DNA from: Verrucomicrobiales bacterium
Lineage (GTDB): Bacteria; Verrucomicrobiota; Verrucomicrobiia; Limisphaerales; UBA1096
Direction: 5' to 3'
NCBI GenBank assembly: GCA_002689335.1
Contig: NZFR01000059.1
Location: 1 to 7,875, forward strand
Length of the DNA: 7,875 nucleotides
Part shown: positions 391 through 7,751 of the stretch, in pieces
Layout of the letters: every line of letters begins with the position of its first letter
Numbering within the stretch: position 1 is the stretch's first letter
Position numbers and translations under genes: made by a program
Notes under the pieces: model-generated
Told to the model about the DNA's origin: nothing
Databases searched by the model: none
Seen by the model: only the letters and a program-made list of their open reading frames with translations

Positions 391-401
391 CGCTTGGCCA
401 A
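391..401. repeat. CTTGGCCAA palindromic repeat unit at the junction before the gene remnant
   Basis: CGCTTGGCCAA lies 17 bases after the stop codon of the upstream gene and exactly where threonine-synthase-like similarity begins. It is preceded by partial CTTG copies (382-390). This position suits a recombination or deletion junction, which is inference. Confidence 0.75.
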
Positions 402-570
402 TCTCGAGGGCTTGGCTATCTACCCAGAAACCGCCATCTGCATGGGAGTACTCGGCCAGTTGCTTGCGAAGGGAGAAATTAAGCCAAGCTCGAGCGTGCT
501 TGTATTTATCACCGGCGGCGCAATGAAATATTCCGACATCATCGAGGAACCCACCCAACGCCAAATCCTC

Positions 571-580
571 GGCCAAGCGC
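571..580. repeat. Degenerate repeat unit GGCCAAGCGC
   Basis: CTCGGCCAAGCGC (568-580) is a one-mismatch copy of the window-wide word, followed at 585-593 by TTGGCAAGC, another decayed half-unit. Both lie in the gene remnant. Confidence 0.55.
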
Positions 581-605
581 CTGATTGGCAAGCGATAGCT
601 GAGAG

Positions 606-634
606 TTGAATTGAACGAATAACTCAAGTACTAA
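606..634 (+). promoter_or_regulatory. Possible sigma70-type promoter for the sulfatase cluster
   Basis: TTGAAT (606-611) and TACTAA (629-634) are separated by 17 bases and lie just upstream of the sulfatase ATG at 653. The match is partial (4/6 and 3/6), and verrucomicrobial promoters are poorly defined, so this is only a candidate. The 610-652 gap is the only AT-richer stretch before the four-gene cluster. Confidence 0.22.
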
Positions 635-652
635 CCTCTGGTCACTATTGAG

Positions 653-2092
653 ATGAATCTGAGAAACAATCCCCAGTTGACGAAGACATGGTTATTTTTC
701 CTGTTGTTGCTGTCGCTTGGCCAGGCGGCAGCGAAGCCGAATGTTTTGTTCATAGCGGTGGATGATCTCAACGACTGGGTCGGGGTATTGGGCGGTCATC
801 CGCAGGCTAGCACTCCGAACATCGATCGCCTGGCCAAGCGCGGGACGCTCTTCACCAACGCCCACTGTTCCGCGCCAGGTTGCAACGCCTCACGCTCGAG
901 TTTACTCAGCGGATTGCGGCCGTCGACCACCGGTATTTATGCTAACGCCCACGACTGGCGGCAGTCCCCTAGGCTGAAGGGGGCGGTCACGCTGCCCCGG
1001 CATTTCATGGACAACGGCTACCGCACGCAGGGTGCCGGCAAGCTGTTTCACGCGCACACATTTTTCGACAAGAAAAACCTCAACGGCTACCCTGATTCAG
1101 GGGCGTGGCACGATTATTTTCCGTCCAAAACACAGCAAATGCCGGATGAGGCCGTGCCGGAAAATTGGCCGGTCAATAGCAGCCGAAAGTTTTATCGGGG
1201 TCATTTCGACTGGGCCCCACTCCAAATTCCTAGCGCCGAAATGGCCGATGCCAAGGTTGTCTCGTGGGCGGCCAAGCGCTTGGCCAAGCGGCACGATCAA
1301 CCGCTGTTTTTGTCGGTCGGGATTTACCGTCCGCACGTGCCGTGGTACGCTCCTCAAAAATATTTCGACCGATTCCCGCTGGATGAAATCCAGCTGCCGA
1401 AACACTTGAAGGGGGATCTCGATGACGTGCCTGCTGCCGGCCAAAAAATGGCCAAGCGGCATTGGCACAAGTGGATCAACGACAACGGCGAGTGGAAAAA
1501 AGCGGTGCAGGGTTATCTTGCCTCACTCGCGTTCGCCGACGACATGGTGGGTGAACTTCTCGTCGCCCTCGACAACGGCCCGATGGCCAAGGACACGCTG
1601 ATCGTGTTTTGGGGCGACCATGGCTATCACCTTGGCGAAAAGGAGAACTGGGAAAAGTTTGCCCTGTGGGAGGACACCACCCGCGTACCGCTCATCATTG
1701 TCGATCCGCTCCGAGCCAAGCCGGGCACCCGCTGCAATTCGCCGGTTAGTTTGCTCGACTTGTACCCAACACTCATCAATTTGTGCGGGCTTGGCTCGCC
1801 GCCCCAGTCACTCGAGGGACGAAGCCTGGCCAAGCGCTTGGCCAAACCGGGCGCCAAAACCGGCCTCGTCGCCATTACCACCCATGGTAGGGGCAACCAC
1901 GCAGTGCGGTCTAGCCGGTATCGCTACATTCAGTACGCCGATGGTGGCGAGGAATTGTACGATCACCAGACTGACCCGCACGAATGGCACAATCTCGCCG
2001 GCGACCCAAGCTTGGCCAAGGTCAAATTACGCTTGGCCAAGCACCTTCCAAAAGTTAATAACGCTCCAATTTTAATTAAACGCAAAAAATGA
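653..2092 (+). CDS. Secreted sulfatase, iduronate-2-sulfatase type
   Basis: A formylglycine-dependent type I sulfatase of 479 residues, expected to hydrolyse sulfate esters of polysaccharide outside the cytoplasm. A signal peptide is clear (residues ~11-27: hydrophobic WLFFLLLLSLGQAAA, then KPNVLFIAVDDLND, the alkaline-phosphatase-fold first strand with metal-binding D37/D38). The modification site is C77-N-A-S-R81 followed by SSLLSGLRPSTTGIY, so Cys-type with Ala rather than Pro at the third place. K130 (QGAGK), H228 (GIYRPHVPW), the WGDHGYHLGE block with D322/H323, and K335 supply the remaining expected metal and sulfate contacts. The GIYRPHVPWYAPQKYFD and LYDHQTDPHEWHNLAGDP blocks are typical of iduronate-2-sulfatase-like proteins of PVC bacteria; the actual substrate is unknown and probably algal polysaccharide. 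Five or six LAKR-coding repeat units are embedded in frame, all away from the catalytic residues. The stop overlaps the next gene's ATG (ATGA), so the two are probably co-translated. No strong ribosome site is seen before ATG 653. Confidence 0.93.
   Translation: MNLRNNPQLTKTWLFFLLLLSLGQAAAKPNVLFIAVDDLNDWVGVLGGHPQASTPNIDRLAKRGTLFTNAHCSAPGCNASRSSLLSGLRPSTTGIYANAHDWRQSPRLKGAVTLPRHFMDNGYRTQGAGKLFHAHTFFDKKNLNGYPDSGAWHDYFPSKTQQMPDEAVPENWPVNSSRKFYRGHFDWAPLQIPSAEMADAKVVSWAAKRLAKRHDQPLFLSVGIYRPHVPWYAPQKYFDRFPLDEIQLPKHLKGDLDDVPAAGQKMAKRHWHKWINDNGEWKKAVQGYLASLAFADDMVGELLVALDNGPMAKDTLIVFWGDHGYHLGEKENWEKFALWEDTTRVPLIIVDPLRAKPGTRCNSPVSLLDLYPTLINLCGLGSPPQSLEGRSLAKRLAKPGAKTGLVAITTHGRGNHAVRSSRYRYIQYADGGEELYDHQTDPHEWHNLAGDPSLAKVKLRLAKHLPKVNNAPILIKRKK
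714..729. repeat. Repeat unit CGCTTGGCCAGGCGGC in the signal peptide
   Basis: A one-mismatch copy read as SLGQAA at the end of the sulfatase signal peptide, so it shapes the region around the predicted cleavage site. Confidence 0.55.
831..840. repeat. Repeat unit TGGCCAAGCG in the sulfatase
   Basis: Read as LAKR within NIDRLAKRGTLF, a helix that precedes the active-site cysteine. Sulfatases naturally carry similar residues here (typically LA.(R/K)G), so this copy could be homology-driven rather than inserted. Confidence 0.5.
1269..1291. repeat. Double repeat with 16-bp perfect palindrome
   Basis: GGCCAAGCGCTTGGCC (1270-1285) is a perfect 16-bp palindrome, followed by AAGCGG, giving two period-12 units. 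It is read in frame as AKRLAKR within the surface helix before HDQPLFLSVGIYRPH, so the protein absorbs it without a frame change. Confidence 0.8.
1449..1460. repeat. Repeat unit TGGCCAAGCGGC
   Basis: Read as MAKRH in a polar, lysine-rich stretch of the sulfatase (GQKMAKRHWHKW). It is a half-unit with flanks diverged from the perfect palindrome. Confidence 0.5.
1826..1847. repeat. Double repeat with 16-bp perfect palindrome
   Basis: GGCCAAGCGCTTGGCC (1828-1843) is identical to the palindrome at 1270-1285. It is read as LAKRLAK in the loop after LEGRS of the sulfatase, again in the LAKR frame. Confidence 0.8.
2011..2042. repeat. Two repeat units 19 bases apart near the sulfatase 3' end
   Basis: CTTGGCCAAG (2011-2020) and CGCTTGGCCAAGC (2030-2042) are both read in the LAK frame, giving SLAKVKLRLAKHLPK. 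Sulfatases of this type normally end in a helix with a similar LAKWLPK pattern, so the element coincides with a natural lysine-rich helix. Confidence 0.7.
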
Positions 2093-2937
2093 AACGAAGA
2101 TTCCTTTTCGCGTTTATTGCGGCGGCACTGCTATTGCAGGGTTGCGCGACTGTGGACACCTCGGCCAAGCGGCAGGTTTCGGGTGGGCCTGGAAACGGCA
2201 CACTGATTATCGTTGGCGGTGGTGAGATGCCGCAGGTGATATTTGACCGCTTTTTTGAGGCGGCCGGGGGGAAGGATGCCAAGCTGGTCGTCGTGCCGAC
2301 TGCGGGGTCAGAGGCTTCGTACGATGAGACCAGTCGCTCGGTGAAGATGTTTCAAAAAGCCGGGGCGACGGATGTGCTTTTGCTGCACACGCGAGACCCG
2401 AAGGAAGCGGATACGGCTAAGTTCGGAGCGGTGCTAAAGGATGCCAAGGCGGTGTGGTTCGCGGGTGGGCGCCAATGGCGCATGGCGGACTCTTATCTCG
2501 GAACAAAAACGGAGGCTGCGTTTCACGATGTGCTGAAGCGGGGCGGGGTGATCGGCGGCAGCTCGGCCGGGGCAACGATTCAAGGTTCGTATCTTGTGCG
2601 GGGTGCGCCGGAGGGAAATCACATCATGATGTCGCCCGGCCATGAGGCGGGTTTTGGTTTTCTACGAAACGCCGCCATCGACCAGCATTTACTCGCCCGA
2701 AAACGGGAGAACGATTTGTTGCCGGTCATCCGCAAGCATCCACAGCTGCTGGGGGTGGGGATCGACGAGGCGACGGCGATCGTCCTGAAGGGCCAAACGG
2801 CTGAGGTCATCGGTAAAAGCAAGGTGCTCTTTTATGACATCGCACTGGAGAAAACGCTCGGCGAAAAATTTTATATCACGCTCGATCCTGGCGACCGTTA
2901 CAACCTCGGAGCGCGCCGCGAGTTGCCTATAAAATAG
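2089..2937 (+). CDS. Lipoprotein cyanophycinase-like peptidase (family S51)
   Basis: A 282-residue serine peptidase of family S51. Cyanophycinases of this family cut the Asp-Arg polymer cyanophycin to beta-Asp-Arg dipeptides. Residues 1-19 are a lipoprotein signal (MKRR, hydrophobic core, lipobox LQGC with C19), so the enzyme should be membrane-anchored and act outside the cytoplasm. A short linker then leads to the core: IIVGGGEMP (41-48), VVVPTAG (67-73), FAGGRQWR (124-131, with the substrate-contacting Gln), the nucleophile elbow GGSSAGA (156-162, Ser159), DQH (198-200, His200) and GIDEATA. Size and motif order fit cyanophycinase better than the shorter dipeptidase E (~230 residues), but another S51 peptide substrate is possible. 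ATG overlaps the sulfatase stop (ATGA) with no obvious ribosome site, indicating translational coupling. The stop TAG runs straight into a tandem palindromic repeat. Confidence 0.88.
   Translation: MKRRFLFAFIAAALLLQGCATVDTSAKRQVSGGPGNGTLIIVGGGEMPQVIFDRFFEAAGGKDAKLVVVPTAGSEASYDETSRSVKMFQKAGATDVLLLHTRDPKEADTAKFGAVLKDAKAVWFAGGRQWRMADSYLGTKTEAAFHDVLKRGGVIGGSSAGATIQGSYLVRGAPEGNHIMMSPGHEAGFGFLRNAAIDQHLLARKRENDLLPVIRKHPQLLGVGIDEATAIVLKGQTAEVIGKSKVLFYDIALEKTLGEKFYITLDPGDRYNLGARRELPIK
2162..2173. repeat. Repeat unit CGGCCAAGCGGC in the lipoprotein linker
   Basis: Read as SAKRQ in the flexible stretch between the lipobox Cys19 and the catalytic domain of the cyanophycinase, a position that tolerates change. 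One base differs from the core word. Confidence 0.5.
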
Positions 2938-2960
2938 CGCTTGGCCAAGCGCTTGGCCGC
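2937..2960. repeat. Tandem palindromic repeat immediately after the cyanophycinase stop
   Basis: Two period-12 units begin at the last base of the TAG stop codon and contain the perfect palindrome GGCCAAGCGCTTGGCC (2943-2958). Located in the 69-base gap between two coupled gene pairs, a transcribed copy could fold back on itself. No T-tract follows, so it is not a standard intrinsic terminator. Confidence 0.85.
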
Positions 2961-3006
2961 TCATCCTTTACAAGTGGGCATTCGCCACGGAAGATGTGGG
3001 CGCATT

Positions 3007-4452
3007 ATGAATATTCGATTACACGATGGACCGCTGGCGGAGCTGGAGTGCGACGCGTTGGTCCTGCCGTTGACGGGAGGGGGCGCGCTTGGCCAATCGG
3101 CTGCGACTCAAGTGGCCGGCCTGCGCGAGTCCGGCGAAGTGACCGGGAAACCAAGCGAGTTGACCCTCCTGCACGAGCCGAAGAATCTCGCTGCACGCCG
3201 GCTGATGCTCGTGGGGGTTGGGGATGAATTGGATGCGACTCAGGCGTTTCATTTGGCCGGCCAAGCGGTGCGTGTGGCACAGCAAAAAAAATTCAAACGG
3301 CTCGCGATCGCGTTTGAGGATGGTGGGTTGATTCGTGCCTTGGTGGAGGGTTGCGTTTACGGAGGGTATGAACGGCCGAAGTACAAAAGTGACGACTCCG
3401 CGTCGCCTGTGGAGGAGATTATGATCGTCGCACCGGGCGCGGATGAATTGGCTTTCGAAGCCGGCCGAGCCGTTGGCGAATCGGTCAATCTGACGCGCCG
3501 ATTGGTCGATATTCCTGCGAATGATCTTGGGCCGGTTGAGTTTGCCGATATGGCCGAGTCGATGGGGAGCGCCGCGGGGCTGGAGGTCGAGGTGCTCGAC
3601 GAACCGGCGCTCGAGGCGCTTGGGGCCGGTTCCCTATTGAGCGTGGCCAAGGGCTCCGCGCGACCACCCCGATTGGTTCGGCTGAGCTGGAATCCAAGCA
3701 ACGCCATTGGAGGGTCTCACCTGTTTCTTGTCGGCAAGGGGGTGACGTTTGACACTGGCGGGCTTTCGTTGAAGCCGGCGAACTCGATGGAAAAAATGAA
3801 GTACGACATGGCTGGCGCGGCGACCATGCTCGGGGCGATCACGGCAATCGCGAGGCTCGGGGTGCCGCAGCGAGTGAGCTGCCTGCTTGGCTTAGTGGAA
3901 AACATGCCCAGCGGAACGGCCACCCGCCCGGGCGATATTGTGCAGGCGATGAATGGCAAAACCATCGAGGTGATCAACACCGACGCCGAGGGCCGATTGG
4001 TTTTGGCGGACGCACTCACGTATGCGGTGAGACAGGGAGCGACGCACCTGATCGATGCCGCGACTTTGACCGGCGCGGTGAGCGTTGCACTCGGTTCAGT
4101 GAATATCGGGTTGATGAGCAACAACGAATCGTTGCAATCGCACATCACGGCATCCGGTCTCGCGATCGGAGAACATTTTTGGGCGCTGCCGATGAACGAC
4201 GATTATCTGGATCCGATGAAAGGCGACCTCTCCGACCTGCGCAACGCCGGTACGGATCGCAAGGCGGGGACGATTACGGCGGCCAAGTTTCTCGAGCAAT
4301 TCGTGGACGCCACGCCGTGGGCGCATCTGGACATCGCCGGCACGGCCAATCTCGACAAGGAACTGCCGCACGCGCCGAAAGGAGCCTCGGGCATCGCGGT
4401 GCGGTCACTGGTCTGTGCGGTGGAAAACTGGCCGAATGGAGGGCCCGGATGA
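3007..4452 (+). CDS. pepA: Leucyl aminopeptidase (family M17)
   Basis: A cytosolic two-metal aminopeptidase releasing N-terminal residues from peptides, 481 residues (E. coli PepA is 503). The N-terminal macro-like domain covers roughly 1-160 (MNIRLHDGPLAELECDALVLP; ARRLMLVGVGDELD) and the catalytic domain the rest. Metal and active-site residues are all in place: VGK244GVTFD249TGGLSLK256P, KYD267MAGAA and the signature NTD326AE328GR330L. ATG 3007 was chosen because MNIRLHDG matches the family N-terminus. An in-frame TTG at 2941 lies inside the palindromic repeat and would add an atypical MAKRLAAHPLQ leader. GGAAG at 2989-2993 is a distant, weak ribosome site. The stop overlaps the carbonic anhydrase ATG (ATGA). 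Repeat units give GALGQSAA near residue 30 and LAGQAV near residue 86, both in the non-catalytic domain. After a cyanophycinase it could finish peptide breakdown, but M17 enzymes are not established to cleave beta-Asp-Arg. Confidence 0.95.
   Translation: MNIRLHDGPLAELECDALVLPLTGGGALGQSAATQVAGLRESGEVTGKPSELTLLHEPKNLAARRLMLVGVGDELDATQAFHLAGQAVRVAQQKKFKRLAIAFEDGGLIRALVEGCVYGGYERPKYKSDDSASPVEEIMIVAPGADELAFEAGRAVGESVNLTRRLVDIPANDLGPVEFADMAESMGSAAGLEVEVLDEPALEALGAGSLLSVAKGSARPPRLVRLSWNPSNAIGGSHLFLVGKGVTFDTGGLSLKPANSMEKMKYDMAGAATMLGAITAIARLGVPQRVSCLLGLVENMPSGTATRPGDIVQAMNGKTIEVINTDAEGRLVLADALTYAVRQGATHLIDAATLTGAVSVALGSVNIGLMSNNESLQSHITASGLAIGEHFWALPMNDDYLDPMKGDLSDLRNAGTDRKAGTITAAKFLEQFVDATPWAHLDIAGTANLDKELPHAPKGASGIAVRSLVCAVENWPNGGPG
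3085..3101. repeat. Repeat unit GCGCTTGGCCAATCGGC in pepA
   Basis: Read in the alternative LGQ frame as ALGQSA in the N-terminal domain of PepA. It contains an exact TTGGCCAA core. Confidence 0.65.
3252..3268. repeat. Variant repeat TTTGGCCGGCCAAGCGG in pepA
   Basis: Two half-units share a GGCCGGCC centre instead of GGCC, read as LAGQAV. Probably a diverged copy. It is the last recognisable unit before a ~1.8-kb stretch lacking the core word. Confidence 0.45.
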
Positions 4453-5051
4453 TTTCAGCGAGTGACGCTCTCAAACAACTGAAGGAAGGCAACGACCGTT
4501 TTGTCTCCGGCAGTCCGTTGCTAGAGTCGCTGGCGAATCCCGAGCGCCGCAGCGAATTGCAGGCCGGTCAGGAACCATTTGCGATCATCCTCGGTTGTTC
4601 AGATTCGCGCGTACCATCGGAGATTGTTTTTGATTGCAGCCTTGGCCATTTATTTGTGATCCGAGTGGCCGGAAATATAGTGGCGCCGTCACAGATCGGT
4701 AGCATCGAGTACGCGACCTCGCAGTTAGGCACTCGCTTGGTCGTGGTAATGGGGCATACCGGCTGCGGCGCGGTTTCTGCCACGATCAATGAACTTCGGC
4801 AGCCCAGCGAAGATCTTTCCCCGAACCTAAGCGCGATCGTTGATCGCGTTCGTCCGGCGGTCGAGCCGTTAATGGATTCCGGTGCGAAAGAAGCCGAGTT
4901 GCTCAATCGTGCTGTGCAGGCGAATATCCACCAGTCGGTGGCGCAACTCCGTGCCGGGTCGGACATCCTCGCCGGCCAAGTGCAGGGCGATGGGCTTGAG
5001 ATTGTTGGCGCCCAATATTCGCTGAGCACCGGCCGCGTGGAATTCCTCTAG
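4449..5051 (+). CDS. Beta-class carbonic anhydrase
   Basis: A zinc enzyme of 200 residues interconverting CO2 and bicarbonate. The beta-class ligand set is complete: C50-S-D52-S-R54 in IILGCSDSRVPSE, and H103-T-G-C106 in VVMGHTGCGAV. The conserved FVIRVAGN segment lies between them (69-76). The N-terminus (SASDALKQLKEGNDRFVSG) is the usual helical start of bacterial beta-class enzymes, and no signal peptide is present, so it is cytoplasmic. The start at 4449 is supported by the ATGA overlap with pepA and by a good ribosome site GGAGGG (4438-4443) 5 bases upstream; the frame continues further upstream inside pepA, but that part is antifamily sequence. Its place at the end of the cluster suggests bicarbonate supply for carboxylation or pH balance; no partner gene here specifies which. 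Confidence 0.95.
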   Translation: MISASDALKQLKEGNDRFVSGSPLLESLANPERRSELQAGQEPFAIILGCSDSRVPSEIVFDCSLGHLFVIRVAGNIVAPSQIGSIEYATSQLGTRLVVVMGHTGCGAVSATINELRQPSEDLSPNLSAIVDRVRPAVEPLMDSGAKEAELLNRAVQANIHQSVAQLRAGSDILAGQVQGDGLEIVGAQYSLSTGRVEFL

Positions 5052-5080
5052 CCACAAGCTGCAAAAAAACGCCCCCCAAG

Positions 5081-5092
5081 TTGGCCAAGCGC
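5081..5092. repeat. Repeat unit TTGGCCAAGCGC between convergent genes
   Basis: Lies in the 52-base gap separating the carbonic anhydrase stop (5051) from the LarA-family stop (5104). A run of seven A (5063-5069) sits nearby, which would be a T-tract in the minus-strand transcript. Confidence 0.7.
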
Positions 5093-5103
5093 AGTAGTGT
5101 GTG

Positions 5104-6375
5104 TCAGGCCCAAGCGGGCGGATTGGCCAAGCGGAAAAGCCGTTCGCCAGCGTGTGGGACGAGCAGAATACCTTCGTCCTCACGGTTGGCGAAATCCTCA
5201 GGATTAATCGTCGCCGGATCGCGGTAGCCGAGATTGATCTGCCGGCACTTGGCCTCGGAGATCTGGGTGGCCAAGGTCACCTCCGCGCGTGGCGTCTCCA
5301 CCCCGTTTTTGAACTTACCCAGCCCTTTTACGTGCACGCAGTGGGCCAGAGCACCCCAAGGCATATCCTTGAATTGATCCCACTGTTTCAGGAAATAGTC
5401 GCGGCAGTGGTAGCCGACTTTTTCGATCGTCTCTCCGTGAGCGATGCAAACGTCGCTGATGTGCGGCGCGTAGATGATCAACTCACCACCGTCGGCCAAC
5501 ACCGACTCAAGTTTGTACATGCATTTGCCGGCGGTCCAAATCTCATCATACATCTCCGGCGCACAGGCGAGGATCTTATGGAACGGCTTTTCCTTGCTGA
5601 GCGTGTGGCGTTCGGAGGAAAGGTCACTCGCCGCAGACCACGCCTCCTCGACCGATCCGGCGAACAGGCCGCTCATACCGTCGCTTTCGACGACCATGCA
5701 AAACGCGAGTTTGGGAATTTTCACCATCGCGCCGGCGCGATCGACGACCTTTCGCACCGGCGTCCATTTGTGGCCGATGATTTTCGGAGTGGTGATTACG
5801 GCACCGAGCCAATGGAAAAAATTCAGCACCTGCGGTCCGGCGACCCCTGGGAAGAGATACTTGTTACCCCCGGAAAACCCGACAACCTCGTGCGGGAAAA
5901 CCGGCCCGATGATCACGATTTGGTCGTAGTCAAACAGCTTGGCGTTGACCTCCACCGTCACGTCCATCTCGAACAATCCGCCACTGAGATCGCTGATTTC
6001 CTCGGCCGTGATCGTGCCAATATTTTTGAGGGCACTTGGGTCATCCCAAGCATGATTGAAAAACTGAACCTTCGCGTATCGGCCGGTGCGTTCGTCGTGG
6101 GAGATTTCCAGCCTTTGCTCGATGGCCGCCTCTCCCATGGCCTGATGCGTCCCCAGTGCGATCATGACATCCAGCGCTGAGGCAACCCCACCGATCTGTT
6201 CGTGGATCTCCTTAAACATCGTCCCCACCGGTGCAGTTCGGGTGGCGTCCGGCACGATCAACAGAACCTTGCGATCGCGGAATGCCTCTTCCGGCATGGA
6301 CTCCGTCACGACCTCGCGCGCTTGCTCGGTGCTGAGCAGTTTGCCCTCGGAAACTTTTTTGGAAACGACTCCCAC
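5104..6375 (-). CDS. LarA-family nickel-pincer hydroxyacid racemase/epimerase
   Basis: A 423-residue protein of the lactate racemase (LarA, DUF2088) superfamily, which racemises or epimerises 2-hydroxy acids using a nickel-pincer (NPN) cofactor bound to a lysine. Visible residues: PD43ATR46TAP, ALGTH77, PH162EVVGFSGGNK172YLFPG and NFFH188. The 162-172-188 spacing equals that of L. plantarum LarA His174, Lys184 (cofactor attachment) and His200 (Ni ligand), and D43/R46/H77 fit its Asp72/Arg75/His108. A catalytically competent enzyme is therefore likely. Substrate is not fixed: the superfamily also includes malate, phenyllactate and D-gluconate 2-epimerases, and the upstream mannonate-type dehydrogenase favours a sugar acid. 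The start is GTG (6373-6375), 6 bases after the SDR stop, so the two form an operon. The family-like sequence ends near VPHAGERLF; the last residues (RLANPPAWA) are encoded by repeat units. The LarB/C/E cofactor-synthesis genes are not in the window. Confidence 0.9.
   Translation of the reverse strand: MGVVSKKVSEGKLLSTEQAREVVTESMPEEAFRDRKVLLIVPDATRTAPVGTMFKEIHEQIGGVASALDVMIALGTHQAMGEAAIEQRLEISHDERTGRYAKVQFFNHAWDDPSALKNIGTITAEEISDLSGGLFEMDVTVEVNAKLFDYDQIVIIGPVFPHEVVGFSGGNKYLFPGVAGPQVLNFFHWLGAVITTPKIIGHKWTPVRKVVDRAGAMVKIPKLAFCMVVESDGMSGLFAGSVEEAWSAASDLSSERHTLSKEKPFHKILACAPEMYDEIWTAGKCMYKLESVLADGGELIIYAPHISDVCIAHGETIEKVGYHCRDYFLKQWDQFKDMPWGALAHCVHVKGLGKFKNGVETPRAEVTLATQISEAKCRQINLGYRDPATINPEDFANREDEGILLVPHAGERLFRLANPPAWA
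5122..5134. repeat. Repeat unit ATTGGCCAAGCGG at the LarA-family 3' end
   Basis: On the minus strand it is read as RLAN and is followed by a decayed partial copy (5109-5117, CCCAAGCGG) encoding PAW. The final residues of the LarA-family protein are thus repeat-derived. Confidence 0.65.
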
Positions 6376-6381
6376 GGTGCG

Positions 6382-7194
6382 TCAGATTGTTTGGCTCAGG
6401 AACCCGCCGTCGACCACAATGTCAGAGCCGGTGACGAAGCTCGCTGCTTTTTCGCTGGCCAAATACACCGCCGCGCCGGCTAACTCGCTGGGGTTGCCAA
6501 ACCGGCCCATCGGCGTGTGGCCGAAGATCGACTTGGCCCGGTCGCTCGGTGTGCCGTCCTCGTTGAAAAGTAGTTTCTTATTTTGTTCCGCCGGAAAAAA
6601 ACCGGGTGTAATGCTATTGACGCGCACGCCTTTAGTTGCCCATTCGCGTGCAAGAAAACGGGTCGCGCTCAGCACGGCCGCCTTGGACGCGGAGTAAGCA
6701 ATTACCTTCGATAGGGGCAGGTGCGACGTGACGCTAGCGATGTTGATGATGCTGCCCTTGCCGCGCTCGCACATCGCCGGCCCGAACTCCTGACACGGCA
6801 GCAGGAAGCCGCCTACGAGGTTGAGGTCGAACACCTTGGCCCAGGCTGGTTGCGGGATATTTTCGAACGGCATTTCCAGGGTCACGGTGGCGTCCGGGTC
6901 GTTCCCGCCGGCGGCGTTGAGCAAAACAGTCGGCGAGCCAAGCGCTTGGCCAATGGCGTCGTGGCATGATTTCAGGCTGGCGGGATCCATCGCGTCGCAA
7001 CTGAAAAATTGCGCTTGGCCACCCGCGTCGCTGATCTCCTGCACCCTCGCTTCGCCGCGCTCAGCACTACGCCCTACCACGGCGATTTTTGCTCCGGCCT
7101 TGGCCATCGCCAACGCGGAGGAACCGCCCAGTGCTCCGGTGGCACCAATCACCACGGCCACCTCCCCGGTTAAATCAAACATGTAATCCGACAT
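6382..7194 (-). CDS. SDR-family D-mannonate oxidoreductase-like dehydrogenase
   Basis: A 270-residue classical short-chain dehydrogenase, cytosolic and NAD(P)-dependent. Cofactor loop G17-A-T-G-A-L-G23, NAAGG (93-97), N125, catalytic S154, Y167-x-x-x-K171 and the closing VTGSDIVVDGGF are all present. The segments LLNAAGGNDP, PCQEFGPAM, ITPGFFPAEQNKKLL and TPMGRFGNPSELAGA resemble the SDR type of D-mannonate oxidoreductase (fructuronate reductase; UxuB/YjmF of Bacillus), which interconverts D-mannonate and D-fructuronate. A gluconate 5-dehydrogenase-like activity is the main alternative. I chose ATG 7194 (MSDYMFDLTGEVAVV); a GTG two codons upstream (7200) and ATG 7182 are alternatives, and none has a clear ribosome site. 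It is the first gene of a minus-strand operon with the LarA-family gene 6 bases downstream. Two repeat units are read as AIGQALGS and GGQAQ in the adenine-side half of the fold. Confidence 0.9.
   Translation of the reverse strand: MSDYMFDLTGEVAVVIGATGALGGSSALAMAKAGAKIAVVGRSAERGEARVQEISDAGGQAQFFSCDAMDPASLKSCHDAIGQALGSPTVLLNAAGGNDPDATVTLEMPFENIPQPAWAKVFDLNLVGGFLLPCQEFGPAMCERGKGSIINIASVTSHLPLSKVIAYSASKAAVLSATRFLAREWATKGVRVNSITPGFFPAEQNKKLLFNEDGTPSDRAKSIFGHTPMGRFGNPSELAGAAVYLASEKAASFVTGSDIVVDGGFLSQTI
6937..6957. repeat. Double repeat with 14-bp palindrome in the SDR gene
   Basis: GCCAAGCGCTTGGC (6937-6950) is a perfect palindrome continuing into CAATGGC. On the minus strand it is read as AIGQALG, in the LGQA frame rather than LAKR, in the surface helix before the strand PTVLLNAAGG. 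Confidence 0.75.
7011..7020. repeat. Repeat unit GCGCTTGGCC in the SDR gene
   Basis: A single half-unit, read on the minus strand as GGQAQ just before the FFSCD strand. The flank beyond GGCC has diverged. Confidence 0.5.
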
Positions 7195-7316
7195 AGCCAC
7201 GCAGTGTTCACCAGCCGGCCGTCATGTTGAAGGAAATTCCGCCAAGCCAAGCGCTTGGCCAAGGGGAGGGTTTTACGTTTGCAGAGCGGAAAAATCAGAC
7301 GTATGGTTTGTTGTTT
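7195..7316. promoter_or_regulatory. Divergent intergenic region with candidate promoter
   Basis: This 122-base gap separates the minus-strand SDR/LarA operon from the plus-strand MORN-like gene and must carry start signals for both. On the plus strand TTGCAG (7279-7284), a 17-base spacer and TATGGT (7302-7307) are a weak promoter-like pair, which would leave almost no leader before ATG 7317. Nothing convincing is visible for the minus strand. The middle is occupied by a palindromic repeat (7241-7264). Confidence 0.3.
7241..7264. repeat. Double repeat in the divergent intergenic region
   Basis: Contains the perfect palindrome GCCAAGCGCTTGGC (7246-7259), flanked by an extra GCCAA on the left and CAAGG on the right, so parts of three units are joined. 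It is well placed to act as an operator or to be read through in either direction, which is inference. Confidence 0.8.
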
Positions 7317-7751
7317 ATGAAGTGGATTCTTATAGTGTCGGCCGTTGTGGCGGTCGTGTTTTTGCAACTCAAACGTGGTGAAGTCGGCGTGAAACGTGGC
7401 GATGATGGGCTGTATTATAAAGCCGATAGCACGACCGTGTTCACCGGAGAGGGATTGGTCTATCACCCCAACGGCAAAAAGGCGGCGCACGGTCAAATCG
7501 TGGATGGAAAACCAACCGGCACGTGGAGTCATTGGTACGCCAACGGGCAACTCGAAGCGGAGGGTAATTACACGGAGGGCAAGCGAGACGGCGTTTGGGT
7601 GCAGTTTGATGAGGCTGGGGAAAAACTCGAAGAGGCTACTTGGGTTGACGATGTCAAACAGGCTCCGGCCGATCCCACTGCGACGCAGACCTTGGACAAT
7701 ACAGCTTCCGCTGAAGCACCAAAAACAAAAGAAGAACCAAAGAAAGAATAA
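7317..7751 (+). CDS. Small membrane-anchored MORN-like repeat protein (YwqK-type repeats)
   Basis: 144 residues. Residues 2-18 (KWILIVSAVVAVVFLQL) form a single membrane segment or uncleaved signal, so the rest is probably outside the cytoplasm. Three consecutive ~23-residue repeats follow: TGEGLVYHPNGKKAAHGQIVDG (43-64), PTGTWSHWYANGQLEAEGNY (66-85) and RDGVWVQFDEAGEKLEEATW (90-109). They share the G-x-W/V-x-x-(W/Y)-(Y/F)-x-x-(N/A)G-x pattern of the MORN_2/YwqK-type repeat, found in many secreted bacterial proteins of unknown role. The tail (113-144) is low-complexity, rich in A, T, K and E. ATG 7317 was chosen because it begins directly with the hydrophobic segment; the in-frame ATG at 7224 would add 31 polar residues, partly encoded by the palindromic repeat. 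Function unknown; a lipoprotein gene starts 10 bases after its stop. Confidence 0.78.
   Translation: MKWILIVSAVVAVVFLQLKRGEVGVKRGDDGLYYKADSTTVFTGEGLVYHPNGKKAAHGQIVDGKPTGTWSHWYANGQLEAEGNYTEGKRDGVWVQFDEAGEKLEEATWVDDVKQAPADPTATQTLDNTASAEAPKTKEEPKKE

Follow-up and report, generated by a model that had tools for sequence, protein, structure and literature searches.

Why does a stretch of marine bacterial DNA carry the same short palindromic word again and again, inside its genes as well as between them? The window we studied (the whole stretch analysed, 7,875 nucleotides) comprises bases 1–7875 of contig C101 in the assembly of Verrucomicrobiales bacterium GCA_002689335.1 (G000), a 2.2-Mb draft in 142 contigs that is 67.6% complete. 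In this window, we found the word TTGGCCAA in 11 exact copies, as a sequence-only reading of the DNA had claimed, whereas 200 dinucleotide shuffles contained 0.17 copies on average and 3 at most. The start positions given in that reading are exact except for 2032, where the word starts at 2033; the near-copies it described exist, although some are several bases away from where they were placed (e.g. GGCCAAGCG at 3259 and CGCTTGGCC at 7012). The form CGCTTGGCCAAG, which had been called a palindrome, is not itself one; the palindromic forms in the window are CTTGGCCAAG (n = 5), GCTTGGCCAAGC (n = 3) and CGCTTGGCCAAGCG (n = 2). The reading was right that copies doubled with a period of 12 contain a perfect palindrome, and GGCCAAGCGCTTGGCC is present within each of the three doublets. 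We are nearly certain that the word is real, found throughout the genus and kept in place by selection or drive in word-rich species, and we propose that it may serve in DNA uptake.

To compare the abundance of the word with chance, we used a reversed-word control that has the same base composition. In the whole of G000, there are 2,184 copies of TTGGCCAA (993 per Mb) compared to 128 of the control, and 493 copies of the 14-mer CGCTTGGCCAAGCG compared to 0. In a sample of 273,654 bases (20 of the 142 contigs, L136–L155) that served for Markov and layout statistics, we found CTTGGCCAAG 378 times where an order-3 Markov model predicts 4.2, and GCTTGGCCAAGC 198 times where it predicts 0.5 (both strands counted). 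The sample counts are far above the Markov expectation, a comparison that the sequence-only reading had proposed for the whole genome. The word extends symmetrically beyond TTGGCCAA: the next base is G in 82% of cases, the one after it C in 63%, and the third G in 59%. Among inner one-base variants, CTTGACCAAG (GGTC on the opposite strand) is the commonest. The core is a perfect palindrome, unlike the directional words known in the class of DNA uptake sequences (DUS) and uptake signal sequences (USS).

In the searches made, the word is restricted to one genus of marine Verrucomicrobia, and equal abundance in other genomes was not seen. The 14-mer occurs in 12 of 387 genomes of the phylum, as a single copy in 11 of them; the twelfth is G000. 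When we counted TTGGCCAA in 146 genomes of the order, six members of the genus had 2,121–4,314 copies compared to 91–143 for their controls, while the remaining 140 had 15–433, at most about threefold their own control. Each of the 21 genomes of the family of G000 (one genus, G000 included) contains at least one 14-mer, with counts from 1 to 1,174. A 26-mer doublet was matched by 82 stretches in a collection that represents each of 84,980 species (by its own description) with a single genome; the best 80 of the 82 all bear titles with Verrucomicrobia, Verrucomicrobiota, Verrucomicrobiales or Pedosphaera, belong to 11 assemblies (judged from accession prefixes) and include some marine isolate names (ALOHA, Arabian, NIOZ). 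Among viral contigs, at least 120 stretches contain the 14-mer, with one copy each among the 80 matches listed; the densest stretches by TTGGCCAA have 2 copies in 2.2–2.5 kb, and 3 stretches, each with one copy, were matched by a 19-mer. We rejected a phage origin of the word on these scans, in which the matches listed have one or two copies. In the literature covered, which leaves out most subscription journals, we found no description of this word in any genome; among the papers listed for the word as text, the titles concern other subjects, chiefly plants, animals and people.

The GC content of the samples spans about 41% to 62% within this single genus. In the three species at 41–42% GC (G387, G391 and G401), 32–69 kb samples contained no alternative word of comparable strength. 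In an rpoB tree (19 species, midpoint root), this low-GC trio lies inside the half that also holds G000, G389, G394 and G399 (support 100/100 for that half and 81/70 for the node within); because of this nesting, the word was probably lost in the trio.

To determine whether word positions are conserved, we compared words with the other 95 palindromic 8-mers that have four G or C, pooled as a control. G000 words are intact in 27 of 31 cases in G395 (9/51 control palindromes), 22 of 23 in G390, with which 78% of bases are shared (6/42), 23 of 26 in G399 (17/42) and 35 of 46 in G389 (26/62); 8-mers of any kind with equal GC are 15–28% intact in the same four species. The result is similar away from G000, with 93% of G389 words intact in G399 compared to 50% of controls, and 83% of G395 words intact in G390 compared to 44%. 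The identity profile has its maximum over the word itself. At fourfold-degenerate sites inside words, G000 agrees with nine species from the genus's other half in 245 of 260 cases (94%), compared to 63% at codon-matched sites outside; with G395 as the reference, 269 of 282 are identical compared to 75%. In the low-GC trio, words are only 6–15% intact, like controls at 7–9%.

Along the G000 sample, word density is 1.01 per kb. There are 234 of 276 words in predicted genes (simple open reading frame calling), in all three reading frames, and 41 are intergenic, where density is about twofold. Words within 100 bp of predicted gene ends number 95 compared to 57.8 expected. Gaps between neighbouring TTGGCCAA copies are bimodal: gaps of 50–200 bp are in excess (81 vs 37 expected), gaps of 200–800 bp are depleted (50 vs 100), and gaps of 1.6–3.2 kb are again in excess (53 vs 36). 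The shortage at 200–800 bp recurs in five of six other species, G400 being the exception. Words form 81 singles and 80 clusters of two to five within 300 bp, and the mean distance between cluster centres is 1,614 bp, with a coefficient of variation of 0.60 compared to a simulated mean of 0.77; none of 2,000 random placements was equally even. In seven word-rich species, stretches that align with none of the other species retrieved contain 5 words in 11.5 kb, compared to 352 in 341.8 kb of shared DNA (1.03 per kb); this shortage has a Poisson probability of 0.02 and comes from little unshared DNA.

Uptake sequences are a well-known class of dispersed, conserved words besides HIP-like (highly iterated palindrome) words, and we therefore searched the genus for the competence channel ComEC. 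The ComEC domain PF03772 was matched in 9 of the 21 genomes. Because draft genomes drop genes by chance, we inspected the ffh–comEC–vanZ locus. In G395, comEC (PF03772 and PF13567) is flanked by ffh and a vanZ-like gene. In G387, G391 and G398, ffh adjoins vanZ with no comEC between them, and in G392, the place of comEC is occupied by unrelated frames. In the G392 locus (L389, G392:C40:18000-34000), the region at ~4960–7340 contains a 498-codon frame that, from an impression of the translation, resembles a secreted protease or endonuclease, together with a TPR-like frame. In G394 and G397, comEC is reduced to an N-terminal part, located on a short contig or close to the end of one; G397 was classed as lost as its match breaks off at codon 264, where the contig continues for 553 bases. 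In G000, G396, G401, G404, G405 and G406, the assembly either lacks the locus or has a contig end inside it, and these genomes are outside the status comparison (the G405 match ends at the contig end). There are thus nine genomes with comEC, six without an intact gene and six unplaced, and the loss test covers 15 of 21 species. The gap between ffh and comEC contains repeated pieces of ~200–250 bp (L380 ~8295–8544, and the same place in L381, L383 and L385), and it is possibly an unstable spot of recurrent comEC loss.

To quantify word loss, we defined an ancestral word as one present in a reference relative and at least one outgroup, and we compared losses with those of neutral 8-mers. In species with comEC, 54 of 269 ancestral words were lost compared to 98.3 expected, an observed-to-expected ratio of 0.55 (species bootstrap 0.37–0.80). 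In contrast, species without an intact comEC lost 86 of 151 compared to 85.1 expected, a ratio of 1.01 (bootstrap 0.94–1.07). The ratio is low in G399 (0.19), G390 (0.28), G395 (0.40), G389 (0.43) and G388 (0.56), all with comEC, and it is 1.28 in G398, 1.09 in G394, 1.04 in G387 and G391, 0.97 in G392 and 0.85 in G397, all without. In each of the six species, absence of comEC accompanies word loss near the neutral rate on the recent branch. The density of the 14-mer follows the same division: among species of established status, comEC is lacking in the four with the lowest values (0.4 to 58 per Mb) and present in the four at the top (282 to 356 per Mb), while the species with a truncated gene are intermediate (G397 116, G394 238 per Mb). 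In one-sided rank tests, roughly corrected for kinship, comEC status is associated with density (p = 0.009) and with the loss ratio (p = 0.012), or p of ~0.02 with the low-GC pair merged. An earlier version of the test, in which some species had different references, G405 was taken as positive and G397 was omitted, gave p = 0.006 for both density and loss ratio. The nearest-relative reference was chosen after the loss table was seen; with other references, the ratio is 1.08 for G398, 0.73 for G397, 0.92 for G403, 1.08 for G393 and 0.73 for G388, and with the more distant reference G000, it shifts to 0.43 for G394 and 0.53 for G389.

The word CGCTTGGCCAAGCG (core CTTGGCCAAG) may be a DNA-uptake word that works like the DUS of Neisseria, a proposal to which we give about half of our credence. 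Because the word is palindromic and the proposal is read from sequence only, we liken the word to DUS and do not file it as one. An uptake-like signal was among the candidate roles in the sequence-only reading, and it is the best supported of them, short of proof. The word would mark the genus's own DNA for import in natural transformation. Cells would prefer word-bearing DNA, and a putative surface or periplasmic receptor, presumably binding as a symmetric dimer, would catch such fragments; a single strand would then pass through ComEC and recombine, and word-bearing alleles would displace wordless ones. The word would thereby be restored where it had decayed, and its upkeep would come from selection or transformation drive. 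The fuller picture, a palindromic uptake language in ocean Verrucomicrobia with a symmetric receptor, transformation drive and a word-decay clock that starts with the loss of ComEC, is plausible but leaves us slightly more inclined to doubt than to belief. To our knowledge, self-marking uptake words are established solely in Neisseriaceae and Pasteurellaceae, where they are directional. A palindromic uptake word in an uncultured marine phylum, if real, would mean that the trait arose again via a different mode of recognition. Such a word would suggest species-specific sex in ocean bacteria, would make the loss of competence datable from word decay and would give an explanation, open to testing, for other palindromic genome words. 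In that case, HIP1-type palindromes of cyanobacteria may likewise be uptake words.

Several observations weigh against an uptake word. The uptake words known to us are non-palindromic. ComEC is the sole competence gene searched; comEC of G000 itself is not assembled; and the truncations in G394 and G397 could be assembly errors. The loss test uses a few tens of kb of homologous DNA per species, with kinship only roughly corrected. Presence of comEC gives no guarantee of constraint, and at least three positive species look relaxed: loss is near neutral in G403 (0.79), G393 (0.87) and G402 (0.97), with 0.79–1.08 for the three over references, and in G400, which is also positive, the ratio is 1.18 or 0.57 depending on the reference. 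In the relaxed species, loss of another part of the competence machinery may have given such a pattern. G394 retains its 238 14-mers per Mb with a truncated comEC, and its excess loss is small (6/30 compared to 2/26 in its sister). Some close pairs show little constraint: words are intact in 77% of cases from G389 to G394 (73% of controls), 75% from G396 to G400 (73%), 79% from G404 to G398 (72%) and 69% from G398 to G404 (70%). Words in the low-GC clade still show mildly raised identity at fourfold sites (46/84 compared to 41%).

In neisserial genomes, DUS have 97% identity compared to an average of about 85%, 71% are exactly conserved in all genomes, and DUS clusters average about 1,500 nt apart, with close pairs and absence from acquired genes (Treangen et al., 2008; PMC2397512); DUS dialects are treated in PMC3630211. 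The word described here resembles DUS in its density near 1 per kb, its cluster spacing (~1.6 kb compared to ~1.5 kb), its stringent conservation of position in shared genes, its close pairs and the many sites one substitution off the word, and perhaps also in a shortage in unshared DNA, of which little was available (PMC2397512). Unlike DUS, it is a perfect palindrome of 10–14 bp, and it belongs to Verrucomicrobia. The USS of Pasteurellaceae belong to a different phylum, are directional and are unrelated to it in sequence. The likeness to USS is that of a short word in great excess with near-words enriched too (PMC1939737, PMC12616744).

Four other explanations have to be set beside an uptake word, and one of them, a side effect of base composition or of mutational bias in GC-rich members, appears very improbable. 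Density does rise with sampled GC across 21 species (Spearman 0.51, p = 0.018), with the low-GC trio lowest; however, the correlation is gone among the 17 species above 54% GC (0.08, p = 0.76), and G398, G394 and G397 retain 57–59% GC without an intact comEC, so GC alone is no explanation. Enrichment is not seen for the reversed word, whose composition is the same, conservation of position goes beyond that of codon-matched fourfold sites, and words occur in all three reading frames; on these grounds, we rejected composition or codon bias. The word had also been called proliferating in the sequence-only reading, with a selfish micro-repeat among its possible roles. Such an element, which would insert copies of itself like Rickettsia palindromic elements or REP, could account for the period-12 doublets and for six TTGGCCAA gaps of exactly 12 in the G000 sample, and the gap rate at words exceeds controls in several pairs (G391 8.8 vs 2.1%, G389 4.3 vs 1.4%; one to three words). 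Yet across three homologous regions, gaps account for just 0–9% of aligned words (0.1–4% of control 8-mers), the others are intact or substituted, and there is no insertion-type pattern of empty sites. In alignments of the M17 aminopeptidase gene, words were made by base changes in place, with CTTGGCCAA opposite CTTGGTCAG or CTTGGTGAG codons in low-GC relatives, and the word at 3086–3096 has an exact core in 3 of 10 aligned relatives (G389, G397 and G395) and base substitutions in the other 7. Orthologous sites differ mainly by substitution, and we rejected selfish insertion, which is the least probable of all the explanations and highly improbable in itself.

The remaining two explanations are methylation-directed repair and a chromosome-organising role. 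The function of HIP1 is unsettled, and Xu and colleagues have reportedly addressed selection on HIP1 sites. In Elhai's model, which we consider unlikely for the Verrucomicrobia word, a methyltransferase acting on GGCC or a longer palindrome would, through methylation-directed mismatch repair, create and protect sites. The word does look like HIP1 and alternate HIPs, being an over-represented GC-rich palindrome that is palindromically extended, lost in some lineages and similar in density, at the lower edge of the HIP range of 1,000–2,000 sites per Mb (Elhai, 2015; PMC4390886). Protection by repair would conserve positions too, saturation near 1 kb could yield even spacing, and the commonest inner variant is a product of cytosine deamination. 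It is nonetheless a different word in a non-cyanobacterial group. Because HIP-like words accompany methyltransferases, we searched the 21 genomes for two families: the C5-methylase PF00145 was matched only in G395 (positive controls 10/14 genomes) and the N4/N6-methylase PF01555 in none (11/14). The methylation word of the sequence-only reading thus has no support from these two families, the only ones searched, and no cognate link was seen for either; a HIP-type word would also leave the association with comEC without a reason. The single PF00145 match of the genus is in L275 (G395:C53). A review of cyanobacterial competence, when searched for HIP1 and for uptake words, gave neither (PMC7690421). 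A site bound by a protein of chromosome organisation, recombination or repair (Chi-like or nucleoid-binding), needed once per kilobase or two, is also rather unlikely, if a shade less so than a HIP-type word. Such a site would fit the even spacing, the conserved positions and the enrichment near gene ends, and the word-losing species that have comEC (G393, G403 and G402) fit a factor besides competence. Against it, G398 and G397, which lack an intact comEC and have ordinary GC, show little or no constraint (0.73–1.28), and sites of the Chi type are directional and not palindromic.

The genes of the window are ordinary and encode a sulfatase (653–2092), an S51 peptidase (2089–2937), an M17 aminopeptidase, a carbonic anhydrase, a LarA N-terminal protein, a short-chain dehydrogenase and a MORN-repeat protein. 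Words and near-copies are located within and between them as follows.

Table 1. Copies, doublets and near-copies of the word in the 7,875-base window (core, position of the exact TTGGCCAA)
Feature	Core	Window position	Location
Word CGCTTGGCCAA	394–401	391–401	Upstream of sulfatase gene, in 77-codon frame
Near-copy CGCTTGGCCA		714–723	Within sulfatase gene
Near-copy TGGCCAAGCG		831–840	Within sulfatase gene
Period-12 doublet GGCCAAGCGCTTGGCCAAGCG	1280–1287	1270–1290	Within sulfatase gene
Near-copy TGGCCAAGCG		1449–1458	Within sulfatase gene
Doublet TGGCCAAGCGCTTGGCCAA	1838–1845	1827–1845	Within sulfatase gene
Word CTTGGCCAAG	2012–2019	2011–2020	Sulfatase gene, 3' part
Word CGCTTGGCCAAGC	2033–2040	2030–2042	Sulfatase gene, 3' part
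Near-copy GGCCAAGCG		2163–2171	S51 peptidase gene, 5' part
Doublet CGCTTGGCCAAGCGCTTGGCC	2941–2948	2938–2958	Immediately 3' of S51 peptidase stop codon
Word CGCTTGGCCAA	3089–3096	3086–3096	M17 aminopeptidase gene
Near-copy GGCCAAGCG		3259–3267	Within M17 gene
Word TTGGCCAAGCG		5081–5091	Between converging carbonic anhydrase and LarA-N genes
Word TTGGCCAAGCG		5123–5133	LarA-N gene, 3' end
GCCAAGCGCTTGGCCAA	6946–6953	6937–6953	Short-chain dehydrogenase gene
Near-copy CGCTTGGCCA		7012–7021	Within short-chain dehydrogenase gene
GCCAAGCGCTTGGCCAAG	7255–7262	7246–7263	Upstream of MORN-repeat gene proper, adjoining dehydrogenase gene

The doublet that follows the S51 stop codon could fold into a hairpin and might terminate transcription, as close DUS pairs do. 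The 77-codon open frame that contains the first word extends over 376–609, in the interval that separates the first gene fragment from the sulfatase gene.

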